Shown: piece by piece, positions 3-15,462 of the stretch
Numbering within the stretch: the first letter of the stretch is position 1
How the letters are laid out: every line of letters starts with the position of its first letter
Virus record (IMG/VR): IMGVR_UViG_3300010413_000201
Coordinates: 1 to 22,861 of that record
Strand: one strand, 5' to 3'
Source of the DNA: a virus
DNA: 22,861 nucleotides
Made by a program: the position numbers and the translations under genes
Notes under the pieces: model-generated
The model's database searches: none
Told to the model about the DNA's origin: nothing
The model's input: the letters and a program-made list of their open reading frames with translations, nothing else

Positions 3-1043
3 AGCCGACAACAAGTCGTGTCGGCTGACGCTATTGTAAAGAAGGGCATATCTGGCGACGTATCCGCAGACGCTATTATTGAAAGGGCTGTAGACCAGAG
101 CGTTTCCGCAGACGCCATTATTGAAAAGCAAATTGAACAATCTGTGGTAGCAGACGCAATTATTAAGAAGTCTGTTGAGCAAGCGGTAACTGCAAGTGCT
201 TGGGTTCTTGGTGTCGGTGGCGGGAGTATAACCGCCGATGCGACAATAAAGAAGCAGATTGAGCAATCCATAACTGCTGGTGCCTGGATAGCTGGAGTTG
301 GCGGCGGTGCAATTACTGCCAACGCTGTCATCAAGGCGTCCGTTTCGGATTCCATTACGGCAGGTGCCATAGTCGAGTCTGCTGTATCGCAGTTGATATA
401 TGCCGACGCTATCGTAAAGAAGCAAGAGTCGCAAAGTGTAACAGCTGACTCCATAATCGAAAAGGCTACAGAATCAAGCATATCCGCTGACACCGTTATT
501 GTAAGGGCCACGGAACAGTCTGTTGTAGCAGATGCTGTTATTAAGGCTTCTGTAGGCCAGTCGGTAAAGGCAAGTGCAGTTATTGAGTCGTCGGTTGAGC
601 AGTCGGTAACAGCAGACGCAATCATTGTAAAGGCCGCACAGAGTTCTATAAGCGCAGATGCGGTTGTAGAAAAGGCAGCAGAACAATCAATAGTGGTCAA
701 CGCGGTGATCTCTTGCGTTGGCAAGCCCGTGTGGGTATCGCCTGCAAATATGGGGCCAGCTGGATCGTCTCCTGTGTTAGTGTTTACGATACCAGATTCG
801 CCATTTAGTATGCACTTCAGATTGGAGTTAGACAAGGTAGACACATTTGATAGTGGAGACTATCAAAAATTTGAAACGTGGGTAGACACTACTGGTTGGG
901 AATATTACGACGGTGGTACATGGCAACCGTTCCCATCAACGGGTGTGCCAAATACATACTCTGGAAACGATTGTAGATATACAGTACAAACGCCACTGTC
1001 TTCTGGTACATGGTATAGGAAAGTTACGGGAGGTAAGGCATAA
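3..1043 (+). CDS. 14-residue-repeat fibrous virion protein, 5' end outside the window
   Basis: The reading frame is open to the left edge, so this is the C-terminal part of a longer protein; the GTG at 18 is inside the repeat array and is not a credible start. Sixteen repeats of exactly 14 residues follow (bases 21-692), consensus roughly S-A-D-A-I-I-x-K-x-x-x-Q-S-V, then a decaying copy. Bases about 710-1040 encode a non-repetitive domain rich in Trp, Tyr and Gly, which may be a terminal or trimerising head domain. I see no signal peptide, catalytic motif or membrane segment. The V-x-A-x-A-x-I pattern suggests one short beta strand plus a turn per repeat, as in beta-solenoid or beta-spiral fibres; that is inference. 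It ends in a TAATG overlap with the next gene. A virion fibre or decoration role rests on the phage context. I recognise no named family. Confidence 0.72.
   Translation, partial: SRQQVVSADAIVKKGISGDVSADAIIERAVDQSVSADAIIEKQIEQSVVADAIIKKSVEQAVTASAWVLGVGGGSITADATIKKQIEQSITAGAWIAGVGGGAITANAVIKASVSDSITAGAIVESAVSQLIYADAIVKKQESQSVTADSIIEKATESSISADTVIVRATEQSVVADAVIKASVGQSVKASAVIESSVEQSVTADAIIVKAAQSSISADAVVEKAAEQSIVVNAVISCVGKPVWVSPANMGPAGSSPVLVFTIPDSPFSMHFRLELDKVDTFDSGDYQKFETWVDTTGWEYYDGGTWQPFPSTGVPNTYSGNDCRYTVQTPLSSGTWYRKVTGGKA
21..692 (+). repeat. Sixteen tandem 42-nt (14-residue) coding repeats, array 1
   Basis: Sixteen consecutive units have the same length, 42 nt, with no insertion or deletion. 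Position 2 is nearly always Ala, position 4 almost always Ala, position 3 mostly Asp (11 of 16) and otherwise Ser, Gly or Asn, position 6 Ile or Val, and position 14 Val or Ile. Synonymous sites differ widely between units, so the array is old and conserved at protein level, not a fresh DNA duplication. A seventeenth copy starting at 693 loses the pattern after about eight residues. Confidence 0.93.
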
Positions 1044-1516
1044 TGGCAGACCTCCAACTTTGGGTTGCGTCGGAACAATCAACAGGTGCGTGGAATACAA
1101 CTGGTTCTACGCCATATCTTGACGCACAAGATCAGCCTACAAATTATATCTATAGCACTGGAAGAAACGCTGACTCTGGCGTATATCTGTTTGATACAAC
1201 GTCCGAGACTGGCACAATCACCTCCGTCACGCTTTATATTTACGCATATGGAGTTGCGAGCAGTAACTTTACGTCAATACTAAGTGGTTCTGATACAGGG
1301 CTTGGGCCTCCTGCTTCGTGGGGATGGGTAAACGTAGACGTTTCCAGTATCCTTACAACGTGGGCGCAGATCAACGCTGCTACGATATACTTCGACAGGC
1401 CGAACACAACTAATGACGCTGGTGTTGACGCTGCATATCTGTACGTTGTATATCAAGGCGCTACTCCTCAAAGTGGGAGTATAACAGCCAATGCCTTTAT
1501 TGAGAAAACTAACTAA
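1043..1516 (+). CDS. Probable beta-sandwich (carbohydrate-binding-like) protein ending in one 14-residue repeat
   Basis: The ATG overlaps the upstream stop (TAATG) and has a strong ribosome site, GGGAGGT at 1028-1034, eight bases upstream. Residues 1-140 look like an all-beta jelly-roll: alternating hydrophobic strands such as SVTLYIYAYG and WVNVDVSSIL, an order I associate with DNRLRE/CBM-like binding modules (resemblance only). The last 15 residues, GSITANAFIEKTN and neighbours, are one unit of the same repeat as the flanking proteins. The frame stops at TAA 1514-1516, but the repeat pattern resumes in another frame from 1513. The natural product may therefore be one polypeptide: an N-terminal jelly-roll followed by about 37 repeats. 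If the stop is real, this is a stand-alone 157-residue protein. Confidence 0.68.
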   Translation: MADLQLWVASEQSTGAWNTTGSTPYLDAQDQPTNYIYSTGRNADSGVYLFDTTSETGTITSVTLYIYAYGVASSNFTSILSGSDTGLGPPASWGWVNVDVSSILTTWAQINAATIYFDRPNTTNDAGVDAAYLYVVYQGATPQSGSITANAFIEKTN

Positions 1517-3270
1517 CCGCAAAATCGATCATCAAAAAGCCGCAGGCTGGAAGTGTAGATGCAGATGCAACGGTAAAGAAGATTGGGCTAGGCGGAAGCA
1601 TAAATGCCGACGCGTTGATTGTACAGACCAATGAAGGTAGCATAGATGCAGACGCTACAATCAAGACGACCATAAGTGATTCTGTTATAGCAAAAGCTAT
1701 AGTCAAGACTTCTATAGGTGACTCTTTTGTAGCCGACGCAATTGTACTTCGTGGCGCGGAACAATCTGTAACGGCGAGTGCGTTCATCCTTGGCGGTACA
1801 TCTGACAATATTACAGCTGACGCCATAATTAGAAGGTACATAGAACAGAGCGTTGCTGCGCGATCTATTGTCAAGAGGTCTGTTAGCCAGGGTATATCAG
1901 CTGATTCTAACATAACGGCAACGGTTGAAGGTTTTATTACCGCAAAGGCATTTATCTTGGCGGGTGGCGCAGCCTATATAGTGGCTGATGCAATTATAAA
2001 AAAGCCCGTAGATGGATCGATTAGTGCAGGGGCAAGTATTGTTGGTATCATACAACAAAGCATAACGGCTGATGCAATTATCGATCTGACTTGCTTTGGC
2101 CCAACAAGCGATACGTGGCAGAATGATGTTACAGAGGCAACCTATATTGTTGCAGATGCAATTATTTTGGTTGGCAGAGAAAATAGTGTTGATGCCAATG
2201 CTATTATTAGGAAAACAGCAAGTCAAAATATATACGCAGATGCAACCGTCAAGAAAGAACAACTTGATAGCATAACGGCAAACGCCTGGATCGAAAAGGC
2301 TCAGGCTGGGAATATCTCGGCTGATGCGATAATCGAAAAACTAACAGAGCAGTTCGTTACGGCGAATGCATATATCTCTGTTGTTGGCGGAGAGTCAATC
2401 CTTGCCAATGCTGTTATCAAAAAGCAATCTAGTGATAGTGTAACCGCAGGCGCTTGGATAGAGTTGGCCCAAGAAAGCAGCGTTACAGCCGATGCTGTTG
2501 TTACAAAGACTGTAGAACAGTCTATAAGTGCAAAGGCTTATATACAAGTAAGCGGCATTGAGACAATCTCCGCCGATGCGATTATCCTGAAGCCGCAAAG
2601 TGGCAATATTATAGCAAGTGCCTGGATTGGCGCGAAGATAGAACAGTCGATTGCGGCCAACGCAATAATCATAGGCGTTGTAGAACACAGCGTTGTAGCA
2701 GACGCCATTATAGAGGCGGGTAGGCAGTATAGTATAATAGCCTATGCTATTATTAATAAGCCTATAGAGTCTAGCGTCGGCGCAGATGCTGTTATTGTTA
2801 GTGCGAGTAGCAATAGCGTTGCGGCAGACGCTATTATAAGACAACAAGCGGAATATAGCATTGTCGCTAATGCGATTGTTGCAAGAGTGGCAGAGGATAG
2901 TGTTACTGCTGACGCAATAGTCAAGGTTGTCGTAGAACAATCCTTGGTGTCAAACGCAACAATCAAGAGGACTGTTGAGCAATTCGTAACAGCAGACGCA
3001 AGGGTTGTAGTTGCTGGATCGAATAATGTTGTTGCGAGTGCTTGGATTATTGCGGCAAGGGCTGGAAGCGTTACGGCAAATGCCGTGATTAGAGAAGCGC
3101 CTTGTCCAGACGTGACGATTAATGTTATAGCTGACGCTATACTGTACAATGCTGAAGATGATAGTGTCACATCAGATCGGGTTTTTTACAGTGTCACTTG
3201 CAATATTCTTTGGAATGAGGTAGAATGCAATTACACTGTAGATCATATAGTGTTTAATGAGAGTTGCTAA
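1513..3270 (+). CDS. Long 14-residue-repeat fibre protein; no standard start, likely the out-of-frame continuation of the preceding gene
   Basis: This frame opens after TAA 1510-1512 and encodes up to 585 residues. The repeat pattern is readable from the Thr codon at 1516, so coding extends about 100 bases left of the first possible start, a TTG at 1615 in mid-array with no well-placed ribosome site. The frame contains no ATG at all. The simplest reading is that it continues the 1043-1516 gene across a frame break. About 36 repeats follow, then a degenerate tail (3073-3270) ending in a Cys-containing, Trp-containing segment. Repeat 14 (2065-2148) is exactly double length. The composition is rich in Ala, Ile, Val, Ser and Thr, with no membrane span or enzyme motif. 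The likely role is a shaft-like fibre or virion decoration, inferred from the repeats and the phage context. It ends in TAATG with the next gene. Confidence 0.65.
   Translation, partial: LTAKSIIKKPQAGSVDADATVKKIGLGGSINADALIVQTNEGSIDADATIKTTISDSVIAKAIVKTSIGDSFVADAIVLRGAEQSVTASAFILGGTSDNITADAIIRRYIEQSVAARSIVKRSVSQGISADSNITATVEGFITAKAFILAGGAAYIVADAIIKKPVDGSISAGASIVGIIQQSITADAIIDLTCFGPTSDTWQNDVTEATYIVADAIILVGRENSVDANAIIRKTASQNIYADATVKKEQLDSITANAWIEKAQAGNISADAIIEKLTEQFVTANAYISVVGGESILANAVIKKQSSDSVTAGAWIELAQESSVTADAVVTKTVEQSISAKAYIQVSGIETISADAIILKPQSGNIIASAWIGAKIEQSIAANAIIIGVVEHSVVADAIIEAGRQYSIIAYAIINKPIESSVGADAVIVSASSNSVAADAIIRQQAEYSIVANAIVARVAEDSVTADAIVKVVVEQSLVSNATIKRTVEQFVTADARVVVAGSNNVVASAWIIAARAGSVTANAVIREAPCPDVTINVIADAILYNAEDDSVTSDRVFYSVTCNILWNEVECNYTVDHIVFNESC
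1516..3072 (+). repeat. About 36 tandem 42-nt (14-residue) coding repeats, array 2
   Basis: The units start at Thr 1516. The second is 15 residues (1558-1602). Eleven units then run in exact 42-nt register from 1603 to 2064. A double-length unit of 84 nt occupies 2065-2148, and 22 more exact units run from 2149 to 3072. Two degraded copies follow to about 3160. The consensus matches array 1. Eight units here carry Trp, Phe or Tyr at position 5 (for example at the TASAF, TANAW and VASAW units), and none of these has Asp at position 3. Confidence 0.92.
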
Positions 3271-3617
3271 TGGCGAAAATAATTGTTGGTATAATTGATG
3301 ACTTTTACACAGGCGAAACAGTAGAGATTACTGTTTTGTGTAAAAAAGAGGGAGTGGCTCAGGATATAACAGGAGACACCGTTACGCTTACCGTCAAGGA
3401 GAATATTTCCGACGCTGATTCCAGTGCGGTTTTGCAAGAGGACGCAGACGTAACAACTTATGGTGCCGCTGGGACTGCGTATTGGGAGTTAACAACGACT
3501 ATGACTGATATTGATCCTGGGACATATTATCTTGACATTGTATGGTATGACGGTACAATGGAACACGTTGTATATAGCAGGGCTATAAATGTCCTGGAAA
3601 GAATAAGCGATAAATAG
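3270..3617 (+). CDS. Small beta-rich virion protein, baseplate (BppU N-terminal)-like
   Basis: I place the start at the ATG at 3270, which overlaps the upstream stop as TAATG and follows GAGAG at 3259-3263; an in-frame TTG at 3264 is less likely. The 115-residue product is one all-beta domain with strand signatures VEITVLCKKEG, DTVTLTVKEN and GTAYWELTTTMTDIDPGTY, then a strand beginning LDIVWYDG and ending near SRAINVLERI. The order 'tD..pGtY..di.w.dg' is familiar from the N-terminal domain of BppU-type baseplate proteins and related Ig-like phage domains; this is recognition by pattern only. It probably attaches to, or is a partner of, the adjacent repeat fibres, since the two genes are translationally coupled. 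No catalytic residues are seen. Confidence 0.55.
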   Translation: MAKIIVGIIDDFYTGETVEITVLCKKEGVAQDITGDTVTLTVKENISDADSSAVLQEDADVTTYGAAGTAYWELTTTMTDIDPGTYYLDIVWYDGTMEHVVYSRAINVLERISDK

Positions 3618-3631
3618 GAGACTAATTTAAA

Positions 3632-3943
3632 ATGAACGAGATTACTACGGCCCAAGGATTTATGTTGTGGCTTACGTCAGCCGCAGGGCTTGGTGTTGCC
3701 GTGACGTTTGTTGTTGGCCTGATTAAGAAAGTGTGGCCCAATCTGCAAGGATGGGCGGCTCTTGGAGTTACAATTGGCGTGGCAGTTTTGCTTGGCGTCG
3801 GAGGAACGCTGGCCCTAGAGTTCAAGGTATTTGAGTATATTGAACCGTATTGGGGAGTAATTATAGCAATTGCAACGGTGGTTGGAAGCTTTGGCACATC
3901 ACAATTGCTTTACCACGCGGCTCCACGAACTGGAGATAAGTAA
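3632..3943 (+). CDS. Small three-span membrane protein, holin-like
   Basis: The 103-residue product has three hydrophobic segments, about residues 11-31, 38-61 and 71-93, separated by short polar loops (the first loop contains LIKKVWPN). The C-terminus is short and charged (PRTGDK). Size and topology fit class I phage holins, which form the inner-membrane lesion that lets endolysin reach the cell wall. No endolysin gene is in the window, so the lysis role is not confirmed by neighbours; a virion-associated or superinfection-type membrane protein remains possible. AGGAG at 3616-3620 overlaps the previous stop and serves as the ribosome site, 11 bases from the ATG. The gene lies within the same close-packed rightward cluster as the fibre and methyltransferase genes. 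Confidence 0.5.
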   Translation: MNEITTAQGFMLWLTSAAGLGVAVTFVVGLIKKVWPNLQGWAALGVTIGVAVLLGVGGTLALEFKVFEYIEPYWGVIIAIATVVGSFGTSQLLYHAAPRTGDK

Positions 3944-3963: not shown

Positions 3964-4653
3964 ATGGGCAGGATTGACTTTATTGAACGCGTTGATATAT
4001 TCAGCGAGTTCTACGATGCGTTTTCTTTGTCAAGGGACGCTGTACAAAGTGCGCTAGGTGGAGACCTTAATGGCATGGCTAATAAAGCGCAATTTATATA
4101 TCCAAAACTTCGCTTTGTAAAGCTAAATATGCAAAGGTACATATTTGCGTCACAGTTTCTCAGAGACACAGATTACGTTATAGATGTTCCGTGTGGGACG
4201 GGGTATGGTACTGTAATACTGGCGAGTAATGGTAATGAGGTTCTTGGACTAGACATTGATGCCGACGCGATAGAGGAGGCATCTGATATGTACAGGTTCC
4301 CAAACATTGAGTTTGGAGTTGCCGATATGATGAATGATGTTTTGCCAAGGGCAGACTTTATAACTTGCCTTGACGGTCTAGAACACGTAAGCCCTGGCGA
4401 AGCGTTGATTGAGAGGTTTGTGGAGTCACTCAACGATCAAGGCATACTCGTTATTAGCGTTCCAATTAACGAGCTTGCTATAACTGGTGGCGAGAGTAAT
4501 CCGTTTCATATGGAGGACTATACGCCAGAGAAGCTGGAAAAGTTGTTGAGTAAATATTTTGACTCCGTGACGCTTTTTGGTCACGATATGTATGGATCAA
4601 TATCTGGAGTGACTGAGGCGTTTGACGGAATAACCGCGATTTGTATGGGGTAA
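3964..4653 (+). CDS. Class I SAM-dependent methyltransferase
   Basis: The 229-residue protein contains a Rossmann-type methyltransferase core. Motif I, DVPCGTGYG, is at residues 74-82. The acidic residue that would bind the ribose of SAM is in GLDID (D97) at the end of strand 2. VAD (residues 119-121) fits the adenine-contact loop, and DGLEHV (137-142) is the post-motif strand seen in Methyltransf_11/25-like enzymes. The C-terminal NPFHMEDYTPEKL segment (about 179-191) resembles methyltransferases that act on glycans or small molecules; no DNA-methylase (D/N)PP(Y/W) motif is present. CGGAGG at 3953-3958 precedes the ATG. It lies between a holin-like gene and the connector genes, an unusual place for an enzyme. 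Substrate unknown; modification of a virion or surface glycan is a guess supported by the glycosyltransferase 1.9 kb downstream. Confidence 0.85.
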   Translation: MGRIDFIERVDIFSEFYDAFSLSRDAVQSALGGDLNGMANKAQFIYPKLRFVKLNMQRYIFASQFLRDTDYVIDVPCGTGYGTVILASNGNEVLGLDIDADAIEEASDMYRFPNIEFGVADMMNDVLPRADFITCLDGLEHVSPGEALIERFVESLNDQGILVISVPINELAITGGESNPFHMEDYTPEKLEKLLSKYFDSVTLFGHDMYGSISGVTEAFDGITAICMG

Positions 4654-4656
4654 TCT

Positions 4657-5259
4657 ATGTGGAAATATTGTACAAAGGGTGACGTTGCTGATTATTCTGG
4701 CATAAGTGAAGAGCGAATAAAAGATAGCTGGAGTAACATAGTAGAGGGCTTGATTGAAGAGCATACTGGCGACGCGTATGGCGGAACAACCACATATACA
4801 GAATACTATGATGGCAACGGTACAGATACACTTGTTCTAAGATATGCTCCCATAGTTTCTGTAACGTCGTTGTCTATAGAGGGGGTTGACTTACAATCAA
4901 CCGAATACAAGGTATATAGCAGCGGATACATTAGGCTTACAAGTGTTACTGGAAGTGCGCTTGACAGGGCAACAGGGAGTGTTGGTTCTGCTTTTCCAGT
5001 AGGGCAGCAAAATGTTTTGGTTGTATATGTGGCAAACGACGCGACTGTTCCAGCGATAGTGAAATTGGCAGCGATATTGTGTATATCTGAGCTTGCGCTT
5101 ACCGCAGAGCGTGGCGGGGCTGACAGTTCTTTGGCGGTGTCGCGTGCTTCGCAGCGTGCGGGTGAAAGCGACAGGACTTTTGTTCGGTCTGTCGATGTAT
5201 CTGGTAAAATCAGGACTATAATCAGAAACACGATTGGGCAAAAGTGGAGATTTGAATAA
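4657..5259 (+). CDS. Probable head-tail connector / adaptor protein (HK97 gp6-like)
   Basis: The 200-residue protein begins with a short helical segment typical of connector proteins (KGDVADYSGISEERIKDSW, about residues 7-25). A beta-rich middle follows (YTEYYDGNGTDTLVLRYAPI), then a loop segment ending in VPAIVKLAAILCISELAL, a helix near residues 134-152. This order (N-terminal helices, 'G.GtdtL.L...Pi..V.sv.idG' strands, 'vP..ik.A...la' helix) is characteristic of gp6/gp15-type adaptors that form the ring between portal and tail. The call is from pattern and from the next three genes, which are neck and tail-terminator types. The gene starts three bases after the methyltransferase stop and ends in a TAATG overlap with the next gene. 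Confidence 0.62.
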   Translation: MWKYCTKGDVADYSGISEERIKDSWSNIVEGLIEEHTGDAYGGTTTYTEYYDGNGTDTLVLRYAPIVSVTSLSIEGVDLQSTEYKVYSSGYIRLTSVTGSALDRATGSVGSAFPVGQQNVLVVYVANDATVPAIVKLAAILCISELALTAERGGADSSLAVSRASQRAGESDRTFVRSVDVSGKIRTIIRNTIGQKWRFE

Positions 5260-6284: not shown

Positions 6285-6554
6285 ATGGGCGAAAAAAACA
6301 ATGATGGTTTCTTGACTTGTATGGAAGCATGTGATACAATTGCTTTGCTATGTAAACAAGACATTAACAGCTTGATTGTGAATAGGGAGTTTATGTCAGC
6401 TTGTATGACTGTCTTGGCAACAAGGCTTGTAGAACTTCCAGTGGATATGGTTAAACCCATAGCGGAAGTACAAAAGTCTATTTACGATTTACTAGGGATA
6501 GAGGTTTATGAAGATTTTAACAGTGGCCCCTGGTCCAAAGTTCTCAACGTATGA
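6285..6554 (+). CDS. Small protein of unknown function
   Basis: The frame encodes 89 residues from the ATG at 6285, four bases after the previous stop; an upstream TTG at 6270 would overlap the tail-terminator gene and is less likely. The product is mostly helical by eye, with Cys and Met residues in the first half (LTCMEACDTIALLCK), a helix around EFMSACMTVLATRL, and an acidic C-terminus. There is no transmembrane segment, zinc motif or repeat. Its last 47 bases overlap the glycosyltransferase start, an unusually long overlap here, so either the C-terminus is dual-coding or one of the two starts is different. It is bracketed by a virion gene and an enzyme gene; no function can be inferred. 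Confidence 0.55.
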   Translation: MGEKNNDGFLTCMEACDTIALLCKQDINSLIVNREFMSACMTVLATRLVELPVDMVKPIAEVQKSIYDLLGIEVYEDFNSGPWSKVLNV

Positions 6555-7575
6555 TACATTCAAGTATTATACGCAGGCTTTTAAAGTGCTTGGGGCAGAG
6601 GTAAGGCCGTTTAATTACCATGATCATTATGCTTATCATGCGACGGCTCTTTCCTATATAGAGGATAGTAGTGCGGAGGATGCCGACTTGCAGACAAGGG
6701 CGATTCAATTAGCTGCAGAATCGCTAATATCTACAATAGCAAGGGGCAAGCCCGATCTTGTTTTTGTTGTTTCTGGACTTGCGCTTCCGCCAGCGGTTTG
6801 GGATTGGTTCGACGCATTTAATGATTCTTTAAAAAAGAGATTCAAAACGATGGTGCTTTTTACAGAGTCTCCATATATTGATGAAACACAATATCCTCTT
6901 ATTGAGAGGGTTGATTTTGCAGCAACTATGGATTTGGCAAGTCTTGAGAACTTTAAGGCTGCCAACAAAGACTCTTTTTATATAAGACACGCTTATTCGC
7001 AGTTTGTGCATTATCCACGGCCAAGAAGTACAAACTACGGCGCAGATGTTTTTATGGTTGGCACAGGTTTTCCAGAGAGGATAAACTTGCTTGCCAGTGT
7101 AGATTGGAATGACATTGACTTGAGAATATTTGGTGGCAATTGGGGCGATCTAGGAGATGAGCTTGACGACTATTACAGCGCCGAGTTCCTAGACAATGAA
7201 GAGATTGTCCCGCAGTATTATACCAATTCAAGAGTCAGTCTGAATATCTTTAGGACTGCTAAATGGCCTGGTAAGAATGTATTGCATATCGATCCAGGCT
7301 TGGCATATAGTATATCCCCACGGTGCTATGAAATACTAGCGTGTGGCGGATTCCTTTTGACTGATTCACGGCCAGAGTTAACAGAACTCTTTAAAGACAA
7401 AAGGGATATGGTCGTGTTTGATGGTGCCGAAGATCTTAGTGATAAGGTTCGGTATTATCTCACACACCCACGCCAGAGGAACAAGATTGTTGCCTCTGGT
7501 ATGCGCAGAGTCAGTGGGCAAACCTATGAGGCTCGCGCAAAAGAAATATTAACATATATAGATGAAAGAACATAA
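6508..7575 (+). CDS. Glycosyltransferase, CgeB / family-1-like (GT-B fold)
   Basis: The 355-residue protein begins MKILTVAPGPKFSTY, a GT-B N-terminal strand-loop. It continues with DLVFVVSGLALPP, VLFTESPYIDE and DFAATMDLASLENFK segments, the pattern of CgeB-like transferases that read 'tEsP'. The C-terminal half has ADVFMVGTGFPERI, IFGGNW and, near residues 269-286, SPRCYEILACGGFLLTD, which is the donor-binding helix region of Glyco_trans_1_2 (PF13524-like). The final residues RAKEILTYIDE are the usual C-terminal helix. Such enzymes transfer sugar from an activated nucleotide donor; donor and acceptor cannot be told. TAGAGG precedes the start. It is immediately upstream of the tail tube gene, which suggests a virion protein acceptor, but host surface glycan change is equally possible. 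Confidence 0.83.
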   Translation: MKILTVAPGPKFSTYDTFKYYTQAFKVLGAEVRPFNYHDHYAYHATALSYIEDSSAEDADLQTRAIQLAAESLISTIARGKPDLVFVVSGLALPPAVWDWFDAFNDSLKKRFKTMVLFTESPYIDETQYPLIERVDFAATMDLASLENFKAANKDSFYIRHAYSQFVHYPRPRSTNYGADVFMVGTGFPERINLLASVDWNDIDLRIFGGNWGDLGDELDDYYSAEFLDNEEIVPQYYTNSRVSLNIFRTAKWPGKNVLHIDPGLAYSISPRCYEILACGGFLLTDSRPELTELFKDKRDMVVFDGAEDLSDKVRYYLTHPRQRNKIVASGMRRVSGQTYEARAKEILTYIDERT

Positions 7576-7590
7576 CTGGAGGGTGTTATA

Positions 7591-7992
7591 ATGGCAAAGG
7601 TTGTATGTATAGACGCTCTCGTTTACTTCGATGGTAACGTATTGGCGGAACGGTCAGACGCAACAATTAGTTGGGATACTGACATCGCCGAAGCGCGGCC
7701 ATTCAAAGCTTCAGCGGCACAAGCGTTTGCTGACAAGTCCCCAACATGGAAGAGTTGGACAGCTTCGCTTGAGGGCTTTTATGATGACGCAGATGATGCA
7801 CTTGTTACCGCTGCTATCAACAACACTCGCGGTATGCTGATTGTATATCCGACACGTTCGAATATGACGAACTACTGGTATGGATATGCATATATCGCAA
7901 ATGTTGAGCATGGTATCAATTCTGAGGACTTCTCAAGCCTGAGTGGTGAAGCAGAAGGTGACGGGACCCTAACTTGGGTTAACAACACATAA
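7591..7992 (+). CDS. Major tail tube protein (probable)
   Basis: The 133-residue all-beta protein contains the strand pair LVYFDGNVLAERSDATISWDTD, a segment ending PTWKSWTASLEGFYDD, and a C-terminal GEAEGDGTLTWVNN. 'W..sl.g..d..d' followed by 'f.g.l..n...gdG.l.w' is the classic pattern of siphovirus tail tube proteins, which stack as hexameric rings to form the lumen for DNA. GGAGGG upstream is one of the best ribosome sites in the window, fitting high expression. A strong hairpin follows five bases after the stop, and the next genes are chaperones and the tape measure, the normal order. The length is at the short end for tube proteins. No additional Ig-like domain is present. Confidence 0.75.
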   Translation: MAKVVCIDALVYFDGNVLAERSDATISWDTDIAEARPFKASAAQAFADKSPTWKSWTASLEGFYDDADDALVTAAINNTRGMLIVYPTRSNMTNYWYGYAYIANVEHGINSEDFSSLSGEAEGDGTLTWVNNT

Positions 7993-8515: not shown

Positions 8516-8873
8516 GCAGGCCTATGGATTCACCGACGAGCAAATATATGAACATATAGCAACAGACGGTGAGGATTGGGCAATCGAAGCTTACGAATTT
8601 ATAATGGAGGATCGCAATACCTATTGGCAGATGATGACAGCTGTTTTGCCAGTCGCAAGGACTCCTATGGACAAGAAGGGTGGGAAGGCCCTACAGCGAT
8701 ACACAAAACAGTTAAGGCTTGCTCTTGAGAAGAGCTTTGCGCCGTGGATTAATCAACGCCGCATAGCAAAGATTAAAGCAAGGCTGGCAAAACCTCCAAA
8801 GGGTGTTGTTTATGACGAGAATGGGAATGTCATAAATACCAACGATCCTGATTGGTGGAAAAAACTGGTATGA
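8487..8873 (+). CDS. Tail assembly chaperone, downstream frame (T-domain of a gpGT-like fusion)
   Basis: The frame is open from 8430. The coding-like part starts near MKHQIRQAYGFTDEQIYEHI and continues as a helical basic domain (DWAIEAYEFIMEDRNTYW, then LQRYTKQLRLAL) and a Pro/Asn-rich tail. An N-terminal motif of the type 'Q.YGFTdeqi' is common at the start of the frameshift-added domain of siphovirus chaperones, whose residues often pack on the tube protein. It would be expressed as an extension of the 8066-8515 protein by a +1 shift. Independent initiation from ATG 8490 or 8499 is possible but lacks a good ribosome site. It ends with an ATGA overlap with the endonuclease gene. Confidence 0.68.
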   Translation: MMRRMKHQIRQAYGFTDEQIYEHIATDGEDWAIEAYEFIMEDRNTYWQMMTAVLPVARTPMDKKGGKALQRYTKQLRLALEKSFAPWINQRRIAKIKARLAKPPKGVVYDENGNVINTNDPDWWKKLV

Positions 8874-9652
8874 CGGACAAGTTTGACGTTCTAGACAAAT
8901 ATGTTACGGTGAAGTGGTCAACTAGAACAAAGAGTCATTATGTTGATCGCGGATATAAGTATACCGCTATGGGCAGAGAGTTTAAAGTGGCGGTAACAGA
9001 CCTTCCAGACATGTCAAAGGAAAAAGTCTTAATCCGTTGTCCTGAGTGTGGGGAAACCCGCAGGGTTGCATGGCAATCAATAGCTGGAAAAGATAACACT
9101 TATTGTCAAAAGTGTGCATCGAAAATAGCCAACTTTGAAGACCTGACTGGTCAAAAGTTCGGCAGGTTGTTTGTTGTTGGTCTATCGGATAGGCGCGGGA
9201 ATCGTGGTCAGTATTACTATGACTGTAAATGTGACTGCGGGAATGACACAACAGTAGAGGGAACTTCTCTGTCGTCTGGTGCAACACAGTCTTGTGGTTG
9301 CCTACAGCGCGAAGTCTCTAGCGAGAGAATGAGTGCTATGGTTGGGGAATTAAACCCGATGTGGGACGCAACAAAGACTGATGAGGATCGCGATAGTGGG
9401 CATACTAGCGCAGGACATCAGGCTTGGAGGGCAAGTGTTCTGGAGCGCGACGAGTATACGTGCGCGTGTTGCGGAAGTAATAAAGACTTACACGCACATC
9501 ATATATTGCCGTACTCCGAATACATAGAGCTTAGAGAAGACGTTGATAACGGTATCACTTTATGTGATGGCTGTCACAAAAAGTTCCACATAAACTATGG
9601 CGCGTATGTTACGAATGTGGAACTGGATGAATTCCTAATGGGGTGTGATTAG
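8870..9652 (+). CDS. HNH homing-type endonuclease with zinc-binding N-terminal modules
   Basis: Start chosen at ATG 8870 (ATGA overlap with the chaperone stop); TTG 8852 is an alternative. The 260-residue protein has a first zinc module with CPEC (57-60) and CQKC (79-82). A second follows, DLTGQKFGRLFVVG (92-104) then CKCDC (119-123) and SCGC (141-144), a module often found with phage HNH endonucleases. The catalytic HNH domain has CACC (198-201), HAHH (208-211), N227 and CDGCHKKFH (232-240), giving both zinc ligands and the H-N-H catalytic set. It would cut double-stranded DNA at a specific site. It separates the chaperone and tape-measure genes, which are otherwise adjacent, so it looks like an acquired, mobile insert. 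It ends in TAGTG with the tape-measure GTG start. Confidence 0.9.
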   Translation: MTDKFDVLDKYVTVKWSTRTKSHYVDRGYKYTAMGREFKVAVTDLPDMSKEKVLIRCPECGETRRVAWQSIAGKDNTYCQKCASKIANFEDLTGQKFGRLFVVGLSDRRGNRGQYYYDCKCDCGNDTTVEGTSLSSGATQSCGCLQREVSSERMSAMVGELNPMWDATKTDEDRDSGHTSAGHQAWRASVLERDEYTCACCGSNKDLHAHHILPYSEYIELREDVDNGITLCDGCHKKFHINYGAYVTNVELDEFLMGCD

Positions 9653-12600
9653 TGGCAACGCCTGTAATCATTGAAGTAAAAGCTAATGCTTCGCAAGCGC
9701 GAAGAGAGTTTGACGGTTTAAGCCAGTCTTTCAAGGCATTTGGCGCTAGTGTACGGTCTGTGGTGGCTATGTCATCACAGGCCGTAACTGGCATTCGCCA
9801 GATGGCGCAGGGTATTCAAAACCTTGGCTTTACAATGTCTGCCATGATTGGGTTGCCTGTAACTGCGGCACTCAAAACAATGACGAGTGAGGCTGTTGAT
9901 TTTGAGAAAAAGTTGGTTGAGGTAGAAAAGACAACTGGCCTTGCGAAAAGTCAAGTTGGTGAGCTAGGCAAAGAGCTGCGCGAGTTGGCTATGTCAACGC
10001 CAACAAGCGCAAAAGACCTAGCGGAGCTTGCTGCTGAGGCTGGCCGTGCTGGTGTTGGTTTAGGGCAAACGCTTGCTGGAAACGTGCAAGCGGCACGGCA
10101 AGAGATACTAGAGTTCGTCCGCGTTATGGATATGATGCAAGTCTCCACAACGCTTACTGGTGAGGCGGCTGCTGAGGCCTTCTCTCGTTTTATTACTCTC
10201 TTTGCAGACATCGATACCTCTAACATTGAGAACCTTGGCTCTGCTATCAATGAGTTGGGACAGGCAACGTCCGTATCTGAAGACGAAATCGTAGGCGCTA
10301 TGCTTAGAATAGCACCTGCGGCATCGACACTTGGACTGTCTGCATCTGAGGTTGCAGGCCTTGCAACGGCAATAACGCAGATGTCCGAAAGTATGTCGCG
10401 TGGTGGTACTCGTGTTCGCGTTGCGCTTGAACAAATGACCATAAACTATAAAGAGGCAGCAAAGCTGATTGGCGTAAGCACAGAAGAGATGGCTAAGAAG
10501 CTTAACGAAGAAGCGCTGCCAACATTTATAGAACTGGTTTATGCAATAGGACAAATCGAAGATGCGACAACATCAACAAAGGTTGCCGCTGACATATTTG
10601 GAACAACTGGTGCCAACGCTGTAAAAAGGTTTGCGGCTGCATATCCCGAATTGCAAATGCTTATGGAGTTGTCAAACCAATCATTTGAAGACGGCACATC
10701 GCTACAAAGAGAATTTGATCGTGCGCTGACATCAACGTCTGCGCAATTTGACATCCTCAAAAACGCCATCATGGAAGCTGGTTATACGTTTATGCAGGAC
10801 TTGTTGCCAATTGCACAAGAGATCATAAGCGCCCTTATTCCAGCTGTCCAAGAGCTTACAGAATGGGTTAAGTCATTAACGACAGAACAAAAGCTTCTTG
10901 CCGTTGGGATAGCTGCACTTGTAGTAGTCGGGTTGCCGTTGCTGGCACTCCTTGGCTCTCTTGGATTTGGCTTTGCCATGATCATAAATGGTGCCGTTAA
11001 CCTGATCGGTGGCCTTGTTGGGCTTCTTGCTACGGTACTTACGTTTGGCGGTGGATTGTCGTTCCTGACGACAATACTAGGAGGCCTTGCTGCTGTAATT
11101 GGCGGGGCGCTAATAGTTAATCTCCTAAAATCTGGAGACGCGTTTGACAAAATCATAGAGAAGCTACAAGAGGTAGCTGACGGTGCCCTTGATTGGGGCG
11201 AAAGTCTTATTGCCAATATTGCAGAGGGGATTGTACGGGCTGCGGCGAGTGTGCTTGTACAAGCCCTTGAATTTGTTGGTAATATAATCTCGTCATTCCT
11301 AGAAAGCCATTCGCCTCCTGACACTGGCCCACTTAGCACGATTAATGAGTGGGGAACAAGGCTGATAGACACCTATCTGCAAGGCTTTAAGAAAGCTGAC
11401 TTTAGCATACTGAAAGACGTTGCTGGCATTATTAGCAACGTCTTGAGGAACATGGTAGACATTGGCAAAATAAACGAGATAGACTTCGGGCCAATGCTTG
11501 CCAACGCACGCACTTTCGTTGCTGAGTTGATAGATGTATTTAACAAAACTGGTGTAATTGCCGAAGATGTGCTTGCCAAGATTGGCGATATGCTTGGTGG
11601 CGCAGGCGACGAGATAGTTAAGCTGTTAAGGCTTCAACTGCAATACAATAAAGCCCTAAAAGACCTTGAGGATATTAGAAGTAAAAAGGCCGATATACAA
11701 GAGGCTTATGAGGCAGAGGCAAGGGCTATCCTTGCTCGCACAGACCTAACCGAAGCTGAGAAACTTGCGGCAATTATGACTGCAAAGAAACGGCGCGATT
11801 TGGCTATGACAAACGCCGACACCGAAGAGGCGGCGGCACAAGAAAGCGTCGATGGTCTTAAAGAGCAAGTAGAATGGCAGAGAGAATACATTGGTGCCAT
11901 GATGGATCAGGATAGTGTCCTGGTCGATCATCTAAAGCTCATCGAAAAGCTAAGCAAGGTTATCCAAAAAGCTGCAAGTAGCATAAAGTCACTTGCGGAT
12001 AAAATAGCTGACCTGATAGCCGATCTTTTGAGACAGCTAGAAATAAATGAGCGCCTAAAAGAGTTGTACGAATCAAAGGGGATGGATACAACGCCGCTTT
12101 TGAGGAAGGAGCTAAGTCTGCGTAAGCGGCTCATTGAAGCTCTTATGGAAAAGAAACTCATGTATGAGGACATGAATAAAGAGCTTCCAGAGGCCGAGTG
12201 GATGCACCTGTCTGAAGAAGAAGAAAAGATGCTCAATGACAACATTGACCGTATCAAGGAATTAGAAGCTACCCTTGATATGGATCCAGACGCCATCAAT
12301 ATTCAAGTTGATACAGACGAAGCAACCGCAGGCGCTGAAGCTGTTCAAGAAAGTATAAAGAAGCTAAAAGACCTTGGAGACACTGTAAACAACACGCTTG
12401 CGAAGGGCAAAGGTTTGTGGGATGCCTTTAAGAGAGGTCTTACAGGCGTTGACTTGCCGAAGCCAAAAACAGATTTTAAGTCTCTTGGTTTGACAAAGGC
12501 AGAGTTTGATGCGCTTACACCAGAGGAGTTGCAGCAACTTGTTCCACCGCTTGACGAGTCTATGGTTAAGTTCCACGAGTGGGGCGCGAAGATAAAAGAA

Positions 12601-15462
12601 ACGTGGGACAAGGTAAAAACAACAATAGACGAGATTGGTGCCAAGTGGGAAGAGTTTAAGAGCAAGATTGGTAGCATATTTGGCGATGTAAAGAAAGAGT
12701 TTGGCGGTATTGAAGTGCCAGATGCTATGTACAGGTCAGCCGATCAGCTTGCAGCCGTAGAGGGACGCTTTAGCGAAGTCGGAGACTCATTTAAAAAGTA
12801 TGCGCCAATTATCCTGTCTCTTGGTGCCGCTATTCTGTTTTTGAGGAAGCCGCTTTCTGGTCTATCATCATGGCTTCTGTCGCCAAAGACCGTTGGCTTG
12901 CTTGGAGATGCTCTAGGCGGTCTTGGCAGTACAATTGGTGACTTGGCAACTGCATCTGCGACAAAGGGTTCCGCTGTAAAGAAGGGGCTTGGTGGAGCAT
13001 TTGAGACACTTTATCTGAAAGGACTATTCCTTATTGACGGCATAAAGGGAATCCCAACGGCCCTTGCAAAACTTCCTGGTGCGCTTGGCGGAAAGTTGCT
13101 AGGTGGCATAAAGACATTCTTTGGTCTGTTCACTGGTGGTATTTCGTCAATAGGCCCAATGATTGGCAGCGTAGTTTCTGGTATTGCTGGCGCGGCGACA
13201 ACTATTGGATCGTTTGTTGGAACGATAACGCTAATTGGCGGTGCGGTTGCTGCAATTGGCGTTGCTGTGGGTGTTGCTATTGCATACATTAGGAAAAACT
13301 GGTCAGAGTTTAAAGACAAGTTCCTTGGCATTTGGGACAACATAAAGCAGGCGTTTTCTGGCTTTGTTGATAATATCAAACAAGCACTTGGGCTTGGGGG
13401 CGCAGGTGGCGAAGGTATAAAGTTCGCCGATATACTCCAAAAAATTTATGACAAAGCGGAGCCTGTTGCCAAATTCCTTGCTGGTGCGTTTACAAAGGCA
13501 CTGCAGGTTATAAGTGGCTTGCTAAAGATTATATTGCCTGCTCTTGGCAAGGCGTTTGGTGGTATATTCCGTGGCATCGCGGCTGTTGCTGGAGGAATAC
13601 TGGATGTATTAGGTGGTATATTCCAGGCGATTGAGGGTATATGGAATGGTATAACTAAAGGTGATTGGTCCTTGCTGGAGGGTGCCTGGGAAAAACTAAA
13701 GACTGGAGTGCTTGAGATTCTTGGTGGGCTTGGCACCGCAATCGCTGGTGTATTCCTTGGCATTGGCGACACCATTATGGGAATCATAGGTAGTATCGTT
13801 GACGGCATTGGGAATGTCTTTGGCATGACAGACCTAATGCAAAAGATCAAGGGCTTTGTTGATGGCATAATTGGGTGGTTCCAATGGCTGTGGGAGAAGC
13901 TTATTGGTCGGTCAATTATCCCTGACATTGTTGAGGGAATCAAAAAGTGGTTTGAGAAATTGCTCAAGCCATTCCAGCCAGTGTTTGATGCGATCAAGCG
14001 GTTTGTTGATTATCTCAAGATGGCTTGGAAGTTTGTCTCTAAGGCATTTACCGCTGGTGGTGCAGAAAAAGGATTTGCGGCGTTGCTCAAGGTCATTGGG
14101 CCTTTTAAAAAGGTTCTTGGCCCTGTGATAAAAGTATTCTACCAATTGTATAAAGTTGTATCGCCTATTATCGATGCTCTCAAAACAGGATTTAAGGAAG
14201 GCGGAATCAAAGGTGCGTTTGAGGCTATTAAGAAAGTCTTGCCAGATGTGATTAAAAACCTTGGCAAACTTCTTGGAAGCATGATGACAATGATTCCAAA
14301 GATGCTGATTGGCCTAGCACAAATGTTGTGGCCTTGGATCACAGGTACACTCATTCCTTGGGTTACAAGCGTCGTATCTACTGTTTGGGAGTACCTAAAG
14401 ACAAATGTTCCTATTTGGATTACGGTATTGCTTACCGTGCTTGGGGAGTTGGCCGCGAAGCTGTGGGCGTGGATACAAGAGGTTGCGATCCCGTGGATTG
14501 TGGCGTTTGCACAAATGATATGGGCGTACCTAAAAGAAAATGTGCCACAATGGATTGTAACAATAGTAGAAGTCCTTGGCATCTTGGCATCTAAGCTGTG
14601 GGAGTTTATTACAACAACGCTGATCCCTTGGGCGATAGATCTCATACAAAAGGTGTGGGACATCATAAAAGAAAAGGGACCAGGGTGGCTTGAAAAGATA
14701 AAAGAGATTCTTGTAACTATTATAACGGCTCTCTGGAACTTTATAACCACTGACTTGATTCCTTGGATTGCCAGCGTTATAGTAACTGTTGTGGACTACT
14801 TGAAAGAGAATGGTCCTCAATGGCTTGCGACATTGGCAGAAGTGATGAAGCTGTTGTCAAGGAAGTTGTGGGCATTCATCCTAGAAACGGTCGTGCCTTG
14901 GCTGAGAGATCTGATCAAAAAGGGTGTGACGTGGCTTGGGAAGATTGCAACGTCGTGGTGGGCCAAGATTAAGGAAGGCCTTGATAAAATAAAGCAGTAC
15001 TTTGTTGACATCTTTGAGGGTATCAAAGAGATCGTGATGGGCGCAATTAAGGGCGCAATCAACGGAATGATTACGTTCCTTGAAGACGGAATCAACAAGA
15101 TAATTGAGGGCATTAATAGTTTCATTAAGACTATAAACAAGGTGCTTAGAAGCGTTGGCATTGGGGAACTGGGCCTGATTGGAAAGGTATCTATCCCAAG
15201 GCTTGCGAAGGGTGGTATTGCATTACAAGAGCAGCTTGCAATTGTTGGTGATGTGCCAGAAGCGATTATACCGCTTGATAAATTGTCAGGCATGGTTGGG
15301 AATACAGATCGTCAAACACCGTCTATCAACATTACTATAAAAGACAACACTGTGAGAAGTGATGAAGACTTGGATAGGATAGTAAGCGAAATATCGCGCA
15401 GGCTTGGTACAAAATTGGACGCAAAGATCAGGACAGTCGGCGTTAGGAGTATAAATATATAA
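9652..15462 (+). CDS. Tail tape measure protein, 1936 residues
   Basis: The longest gene in the window encodes the ruler that sets tail length, travels with DNA at injection and organises the tail tip. The GTG start overlaps the upstream stop as TAGTG and follows GGGG at 9640-9643. Residues about 85-300 match the TP901-1-type tape-measure domain (EKKLVEVEKTTG, LAMSTPTSAKDLAELAAEAGRAGVG). Residues about 414-493 and 1162-1213 are long hydrophobic stretches that could insert in the host membrane. Residues about 660-900 are coiled-coil-like and highly charged. Residues 1559-1783 hold five 45-residue Trp-rich repeats. The end has AKGGI...VGDVPEAIIPLDKL, the common tape-measure C-terminal signature. 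At about 1.5 angstrom per residue, a helical ruler predicts a tail near 290 nm; that number is inference. No lysozyme or peptidase motif was recognised. Confidence 0.95.
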   Translation: MATPVIIEVKANASQARREFDGLSQSFKAFGASVRSVVAMSSQAVTGIRQMAQGIQNLGFTMSAMIGLPVTAALKTMTSEAVDFEKKLVEVEKTTGLAKSQVGELGKELRELAMSTPTSAKDLAELAAEAGRAGVGLGQTLAGNVQAARQEILEFVRVMDMMQVSTTLTGEAAAEAFSRFITLFADIDTSNIENLGSAINELGQATSVSEDEIVGAMLRIAPAASTLGLSASEVAGLATAITQMSESMSRGGTRVRVALEQMTINYKEAAKLIGVSTEEMAKKLNEEALPTFIELVYAIGQIEDATTSTKVAADIFGTTGANAVKRFAAAYPELQMLMELSNQSFEDGTSLQREFDRALTSTSAQFDILKNAIMEAGYTFMQDLLPIAQEIISALIPAVQELTEWVKSLTTEQKLLAVGIAALVVVGLPLLALLGSLGFGFAMIINGAVNLIGGLVGLLATVLTFGGGLSFLTTILGGLAAVIGGALIVNLLKSGDAFDKIIEKLQEVADGALDWGESLIANIAEGIVRAAASVLVQALEFVGNIISSFLESHSPPDTGPLSTINEWGTRLIDTYLQGFKKADFSILKDVAGIISNVLRNMVDIGKINEIDFGPMLANARTFVAELIDVFNKTGVIAEDVLAKIGDMLGGAGDEIVKLLRLQLQYNKALKDLEDIRSKKADIQEAYEAEARAILARTDLTEAEKLAAIMTAKKRRDLAMTNADTEEAAAQESVDGLKEQVEWQREYIGAMMDQDSVLVDHLKLIEKLSKVIQKAASSIKSLADKIADLIADLLRQLEINERLKELYESKGMDTTPLLRKELSLRKRLIEALMEKKLMYEDMNKELPEAEWMHLSEEEEKMLNDNIDRIKELEATLDMDPDAINIQVDTDEATAGAEAVQESIKKLKDLGDTVNNTLAKGKGLWDAFKRGLTGVDLPKPKTDFKSLGLTKAEFDALTPEELQQLVPPLDESMVKFHEWGAKIKETWDKVKTTIDEIGAKWEEFKSKIGSIFGDVKKEFGGIEVPDAMYRSADQLAAVEGRFSEVGDSFKKYAPIILSLGAAILFLRKPLSGLSSWLLSPKTVGLLGDALGGLGSTIGDLATASATKGSAVKKGLGGAFETLYLKGLFLIDGIKGIPTALAKLPGALGGKLLGGIKTFFGLFTGGISSIGPMIGSVVSGIAGAATTIGSFVGTITLIGGAVAAIGVAVGVAIAYIRKNWSEFKDKFLGIWDNIKQAFSGFVDNIKQALGLGGAGGEGIKFADILQKIYDKAEPVAKFLAGAFTKALQVISGLLKIILPALGKAFGGIFRGIAAVAGGILDVLGGIFQAIEGIWNGITKGDWSLLEGAWEKLKTGVLEILGGLGTAIAGVFLGIGDTIMGIIGSIVDGIGNVFGMTDLMQKIKGFVDGIIGWFQWLWEKLIGRSIIPDIVEGIKKWFEKLLKPFQPVFDAIKRFVDYLKMAWKFVSKAFTAGGAEKGFAALLKVIGPFKKVLGPVIKVFYQLYKVVSPIIDALKTGFKEGGIKGAFEAIKKVLPDVIKNLGKLLGSMMTMIPKMLIGLAQMLWPWITGTLIPWVTSVVSTVWEYLKTNVPIWITVLLTVLGELAAKLWAWIQEVAIPWIVAFAQMIWAYLKENVPQWIVTIVEVLGILASKLWEFITTTLIPWAIDLIQKVWDIIKEKGPGWLEKIKEILVTIITALWNFITTDLIPWIASVIVTVVDYLKENGPQWLATLAEVMKLLSRKLWAFILETVVPWLRDLIKKGVTWLGKIATSWWAKIKEGLDKIKQYFVDIFEGIKEIVMGAIKGAINGMITFLEDGINKIIEGINSFIKTINKVLRSVGIGELGLIGKVSIPRLAKGGIALQEQLAIVGDVPEAIIPLDKLSGMVGNTDRQTPSINITIKDNTVRSDEDLDRIVSEISRRLGTKLDAKIRTVGVRSINI
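14326..15000 (+). repeat. Five 135-nt (45-residue) Trp-rich repeats in the tape measure
   Basis: Units start at 14326, 14461, 14596, 14731 and 14866, spaced exactly 135 nt. Conserved in all five are Leu-Trp at positions 1-2, Pro-Trp at 11-12 and Trp at 31; position 21 is Trp in the first three. The last unit decays after about 33 residues. Hydrophobic residues between the Trp positions suggest amphipathic helices that lie along the tube or a membrane. Confidence 0.9.

Follow-up and report, generated by a model that had tools for sequence, protein, structure and literature searches.

A 14-residue repeat family of uncultured phages and its probable place in a fibrous virion protein

Long arrays of a short peptide repeat lie at the left end of the viral DNA examined here, and they raise the question of which family the repeat belongs to and what it would build in the particle. 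The window, 22,861 bases long, is a complete viral record of IMG/VR and carries the structural part of a long-tailed phage, with a major tail protein gene at 7591–7992, a tape measure gene at 9652–15462 and tail-tip/fibre-like genes reaching to 21277. A first-pass annotation had reported more than fifty 14-residue repeats in exact register, and this stands: the window encodes about 56 units, with the consensus S-[IV]-T-A-D-A-[IV]-I-K-K-x-x-x-[GQ], and their register is far above chance. Lag-14 identity is 0.43 in g1 (vs 0.11, sd 0.02, in shuffled sequences) and 0.31 in g3 (vs 0.095, sd 0.012), and the core motif forms exact-register runs of 11 and 19 units, the longest run in 2000 shuffles being 2. 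The earlier counts per open reading frame (16, 1 and about 36) needed some revision. The single unit at the end of g2 (1043–1516) is unchanged, g1 has 17 consecutive exact units, and the frame-1 ORF (g3, 1519–3270) has about 38, with longest runs of up to 23 units and one degenerate unit at about 2098–2139.

Synonymous codons had been described as varying freely, and indeed 64% of the agreeing residue pairs between units differ in codon. As DNA, the units have a mean identity of only 44%, and Tandem Repeats Finder detected no array over the repeat region. The codon differences and the low DNA identity mean that the repeat is old and selected at the protein level, and that recent DNA expansion is not its origin. 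Long ORFs on the minus strand of the arrays mirror the repeat codons and were discounted.

The repeats had also been assigned to three reading frames, a description that must be abandoned. There are two genes, and in this contig the second (1043–3270) is interrupted where 10 nt are missing from the register (Table 1). A unit alanine codon lies at 1487, and the next, expected at 1529, is found at 1519 (32 nt apart, not 42). The frame shift falls between 1510 and 1516; the frame-1 ORF is open from 1513, and its reading is taken here from 1519. That 1043–3270 is a single, broken gene follows from two related contigs. The corresponding place in L008 is occupied by a single unbroken gene (754 aa; L008:10819–13083), the product of which is 36.5% identical to g3 over 641 columns, and in L005 the homologue of the g2 N-terminal domain (56% identical) runs directly into a repeat region. 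Programmed frameshifting at 1513 was weighed and rejected, as there is no slippery heptamer and the 10-nt loss breaks the unit register as well; for the same reasons a deletion, or a sequencing or assembly error, fits the break better. A search for a near-identical contig covering the break found none. Local TAAC repeats occur at 1509–1519 (AACTAACTAACC).

Table 1. Features of the repeat region and its downstream neighbours (window coordinates)
Feature	Position	Strand	Remarks
g1, 3' part of repeat protein 1	3..1043	+	346 aa seen, start precedes contig; 17 units, then ~107-residue C-terminal domain
g1 uninterrupted 17-unit array	15..728	+	
g1 C-terminal domain (GKPVWVSPAN...)	723..1040	+	common to L008, L022, L035, weakly L026
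g2, N-terminal domain (~143 aa) of repeat protein 2 and first unit	1043..1516	+	TAATG overlap with g1
Register/frame break in repeat protein 2	1509..1519	+	10 nt missing from 42-nt register
g3, rest of repeat protein 2	1519..3270	+	~38 units, then ~50-residue conserved C-terminal tail outside the repeat
Ig-like beta-sandwich protein	3270..3617	+	TAATG overlap with repeat protein 2; divergent relative of BppU_N proteins; phrog_1084 E=3e-4
Small protein with two apparent membrane segments (holin-like)	3632..3943	+	conserved in L008, L009
Head-tail adaptor	4657..5259	+	phrog_442 E=1.5e-15; places the module at the head-tail connector genes

As anticipated, the repeat corresponds to no named family: Pfam, PHROGs, NCBIfam and PDB sequences all lack a match to it. 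The best profile matches of the 14-residue array in the first three were partial and below cut-off; weak Pfam/NCBIfam matches to ParM_N, GYF_2 and CIS5_fam were rejected as chance, being below cut-off and on repetitive sequence. The whole repeat protein as a query retrieved no viral relative, and the search relied on exact short peptides. IMG/VR was scanned twice with the consensus as guide, yielding 14 and 16 loci, some on the same contig or near copies of each other, and removal of same-contig hits and near copies leaves 23 lineages with the window included. The repeat is found in 22 viral contig lineages besides the window, with about 1,070 units in all, and is a family spread across many uncultured phages rather than confined to the window phage. 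Two scans of sampled bacterial genome contigs, using narrow patterns, found none, and no paper carrying the consensus peptides was found. By tblastn the repeat is absent from isolated phages, a soft result since the low-complexity filter may mask repeats. A family found in 23 or more viral contig lineages is yet missing from the family libraries, which leaves proteins as long as about 2,450 residues unannotated, one of them with lectin domains.

Over the 23 lineages the consensus is S-[FLVI]-T-A-[DN]-A-[VI]-[IVL]-[KR]-[RK]-T-x-[ST]-G, with Ala6 in 94% of units, Ala4 in 76% and Gly at position 14 in half. There are 2.4–4.1 Ser/Thr per unit, and the core is nearly proline-free. Each unit has a conserved segment of 8–10 residues, in which positions 2, 4, 6 and 8 (I/V/F, A, A, I/V) lie on one face, and a loop at residues 11–14 that accepts changes of length and whole inserted domains. 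Unit spacing is 14 in 703 cases, followed by 28 (one decayed unit), 15 and 10, with 16 also occurring, and from this order it is mainly the loop that takes the length change. Where domains are inserted, the array is usually cut after position ~10–12 and restarts at position 1–2; in L012 four LamG_3 (concanavalin-like) domains (E=5e-61) are inserted.

The arrays have variable domains on their N-terminal side and conserved ends on their C-terminal side. Over its full length g1 is 54% identical to L008:9776–10816, and its C-terminal domain, which has no tblastn match in isolated phages, is 66% identical to that of L008 rep2. The C-terminal tail of g3 is 65% identical to L008 rep3. The N-terminal domain of the L009 protein matches L008 rep2 (52%) while its C-terminal end matches L008 rep3 and window g3; the g2 N-terminal domain, which received no assignment in a Pfam search, matches neither the L008 nor the L009 N-terminal domains but that of L005. 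N-terminal domains are thus swapped relative to C-terminal ends among L008, L009 and the window. The L005 protein (L005:198–2039) is of separate interest in that its homologue of the g2 domain is fused to a different repeat of ~20 residues (GQSDVxIxxSGxLSVxxxLA), in another gene neighbourhood; shafts may have been exchanged between phages.

One strand per unit, as in a beta-solenoid or beta-spiral shaft, had been proposed from the residue pattern. The strand per unit recurs in both AlphaFold2 models, and its packing may be that of a solenoid or of a multimeric shaft. For 12 units with a 20-row alignment of lineage stretches, the model has twelve strands and a pLDDT of 72.8 (range of the five models, 73 to 47), and for the intact L009 protein pLDDT is 87–92 across much of the array core; the predicted shaft is all-beta, with no helices. 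AlphaFold2 yields confident but unreal beta-solenoids on repeats (PMC11795689), and so the models back a strand per unit more than any packing. Foldseek gave no match at E<=0.001. For the L009 model the top PDB structure, curli CsgA (8c50; E=0.015, prob 0.35, TM 0.15–0.20, 8% identity), is a beta-solenoid of short repeats, but the match is not significant and the unit length and sequence are different; no curlin match was found by Pfam in the repeat proteins. In a unit-lag test, the best agreement is at lag 2 for loop residues (z=3.1) and at lag 1 for core residues that point inward (z=2.8); these values, weak among 40 comparisons, weakly suggest two strands per turn.

An intertwined multimer (a triple beta-spiral, beta-bracelet or similar), with Ala6 and Ala4 at the symmetry axis, is a real possibility for the shaft, if short of an even chance, and is compatible with the function favoured below. 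It would account for the prevalence of these two alanines; the viral beta-shafts known so far are trimeric or pentameric (PMC7565637), and the tendency of AlphaFold2 to over-predict solenoids on repeats is also in its favour. Against this, the monomer prediction is confident for part of the array, the lag pattern, weak as it is, is that of two strands per turn, and unit spacing varies (10, 14, 15, 16). The adenovirus triple beta-spiral and the Orsay virus beta-bracelet have short beta repeats, inward hydrophobic residues and a thin virion fibre in common with what is predicted here, but their units, of ~17 and 8 residues per 15 angstrom, are multimeric (PMC7565637), and the 14-residue unit has no sequence match to them. 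Of the features of the triple beta-spiral (a unit of ~15–17 residues, a conserved Gly/Pro turn, a trimer), the present repeat can be compared in its length, 14 residues, and in its glycine at position 14, found in half of the units.

Gene order is of two kinds. In most lineages it is portal, p161, variable genes, repeat gene(s), BppU_N-like, glycosyltransferase, prohead protease, major capsid protein and adaptor. The window's kind, which includes L008 and L009, has protease, capsid protein, GH25 lysin, p161, a sulfo/glycosyltransferase-like protein, repeats, Ig-like, two-membrane-segment protein, methyltransferase and adaptor. While the capsid proteins of the two kinds are only weakly similar (E about 1e-5 to 1e-7), p161, the repeats and the Ig-like protein are common to both, which suggests that these three form one functional module; in the window, TAATG overlaps join g1 to g2 and g3 to the Ig-like gene. 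The p161 gene precedes the repeat genes in 13 loci (L009:5594–6079 and 12 equivalents) and encodes a conserved protein of ~161–162 residues. It has no match in Pfam, PHROGs or, by tblastn, isolated phages, and is likely to be part of the repeat-fibre structure. There are exceptions: L032 has the p161-repeat module beside putative tail genes, and in L034 no BppU_N-like neighbour was found. Several other loci stop too early for their neighbours to be judged.

The domain BppU_N anchors lactococcal baseplate arms and neck fibres, and has this role in the baseplate of TP901-1. In five relatives (L015, L018, L028, L029 and L033) a domain encoded immediately after the repeat genes, or fused to them, passes the Pfam cut-off for BppU_N (PF10651), here within a head module. 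The repeat protein of L015 carries its BppU_N-like domain as a C-terminal fusion, and by profile match the repeat ORFs of L019 and L035 include one as well; in other relatives it is a separate gene directly downstream. The Ig-like protein of the window has no match to Pfam BppU_N and is only 17–25% identical to the relatives that pass, its tie to them being the phrog_1084 match and the alignment; tblastn found no match to it in isolated phages.

The first-pass suggestion of a fibrous module remains the best reading, and the neighbouring genes, the lectin domains inserted in a relative and the BppU_N-like partner make a fibrous role likely. The repeat proteins would form, with a probability of about one half, a fibre attached at the neck or head, its shaft a new beta-repeat; it would be similar to the neck passage structure (NPS) of lactococcal siphophages, but with a different shaft and the domain order reversed. 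Both repeat genes would give rod-like virion proteins, the units of which stack, one beta-strand each, into a stiff shaft. Conserved ends of such proteins usually face the particle and variable ends the host, and for this reason the C-terminal end, together with the BppU_N-like sandwich, is the presumed anchor, most likely at the neck or head. The variable N-terminal and inserted lectin-like domains would be held out to bind surface sugars of the host or surroundings, a weak ancillary adhesion preceding engagement of the separate tail tip (genes to 21277). Gene order favours neck or head in that the module lies near the head-tail adaptor, although gene position is not particle position.

In the NPS of TP901-1 and the 936 group, a BppU-like collar rings the portal-adaptor junction, and the fibres end in carbohydrate-binding modules (PMC6669499, PMC10747895). 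The BppU_N-like beta-sandwich is a point of likeness, and a long fibre, sugar-binding modules and an association with the head-tail neck would be others; candidates for the sugar-binding modules are the four LamG_3 domains in the relative L012. There are three differences: the BppU-like domain is N-terminal in NPS but C-terminal or a separate downstream gene here; the NPS shaft is a trimeric coiled coil and the present one is predicted to be a 14-residue beta-repeat; and the binding domains here appear N-terminal or inserted. NPS is therefore the nearest working model by analogy, and membership is not claimed. Head fibres are also found as the capsid fibres of 7-7-1, phiCbK and phi29, the first two of which use them for first attachment (PMC12796354); that of phi29 is helical, unlike the all-beta shaft predicted here, and tblastn found no sequence link to isolated phages. 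Only tentatively can these proteins be raised to an undescribed class, that of neck-/head-attached adhesive fibres common to distantly related uncultured phages, with a new 14-residue beta-fold shaft, exchangeable domains in the turn loops, a C-terminal BppU-type anchor and possibly sugar modification. If they are neck or head fibres, the collar-fibre idea of dairy phages would be far more widespread, with a modular shaft that takes domains in its loops; such a scaffold would also be relevant to protein design.

The same shaft could instead serve as side fibres on the tail or baseplate, its gene merely being placed in the head region, and both the role of BppU_N in the TP901-1 baseplate and the tail-gene neighbours of the p161-repeat pair in L032 point that way. 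This appears unlikely, since the other loci with enough flank have the module among portal, protease, capsid and adaptor genes rather than near those for the tape measure and tail fibres. Less probable again is a flexible, mucin-like linker, the two to four Ser/Thr per unit of which would be sugar-modified by adjoining glycosyltransferases. A glycosyltransferase gene does follow the repeat module in 15 loci, and there is another in the window (see below), but, unlike in disordered linkers, large hydrophobic and tiny residues alternate strictly at positions 2, 4, 6 and 8 and the core has hardly any proline; a folded shaft could also be modified. An assembly artefact or recent DNA repeat expansion can be dismissed: the frame break at 1513 means that the contig may carry an error, but the divergence of the units in DNA and codons argues against it and independent contigs with the same repeat exclude it.

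Several other genes of the window and its relatives deserve mention. The window glycosyltransferase (6508–7575; Glyco_trans_1_2, E=7e-28) lies between the connector and major tail protein genes and is conserved in L008 and L009; it possibly modifies virion proteins. A SAM-dependent methyltransferase (3964–4653; Methyltransf_23/25) stands amid the connector genes, and L008 and L009 have one of similar size and start at the same place. Between the tail assembly genes and the tape measure, 8852–9652 encodes a protein with an HNH-type motif (CCG..LHAHHILPYSEY..ITLCDGCH), and at this place too L008 and L009 have a protein with a similar start. In L009 the GH25 lysin gene (L009:3363–5495) immediately follows the major capsid gene, an unusual site for a lysin, and the enzyme hints at a Gram-positive host.
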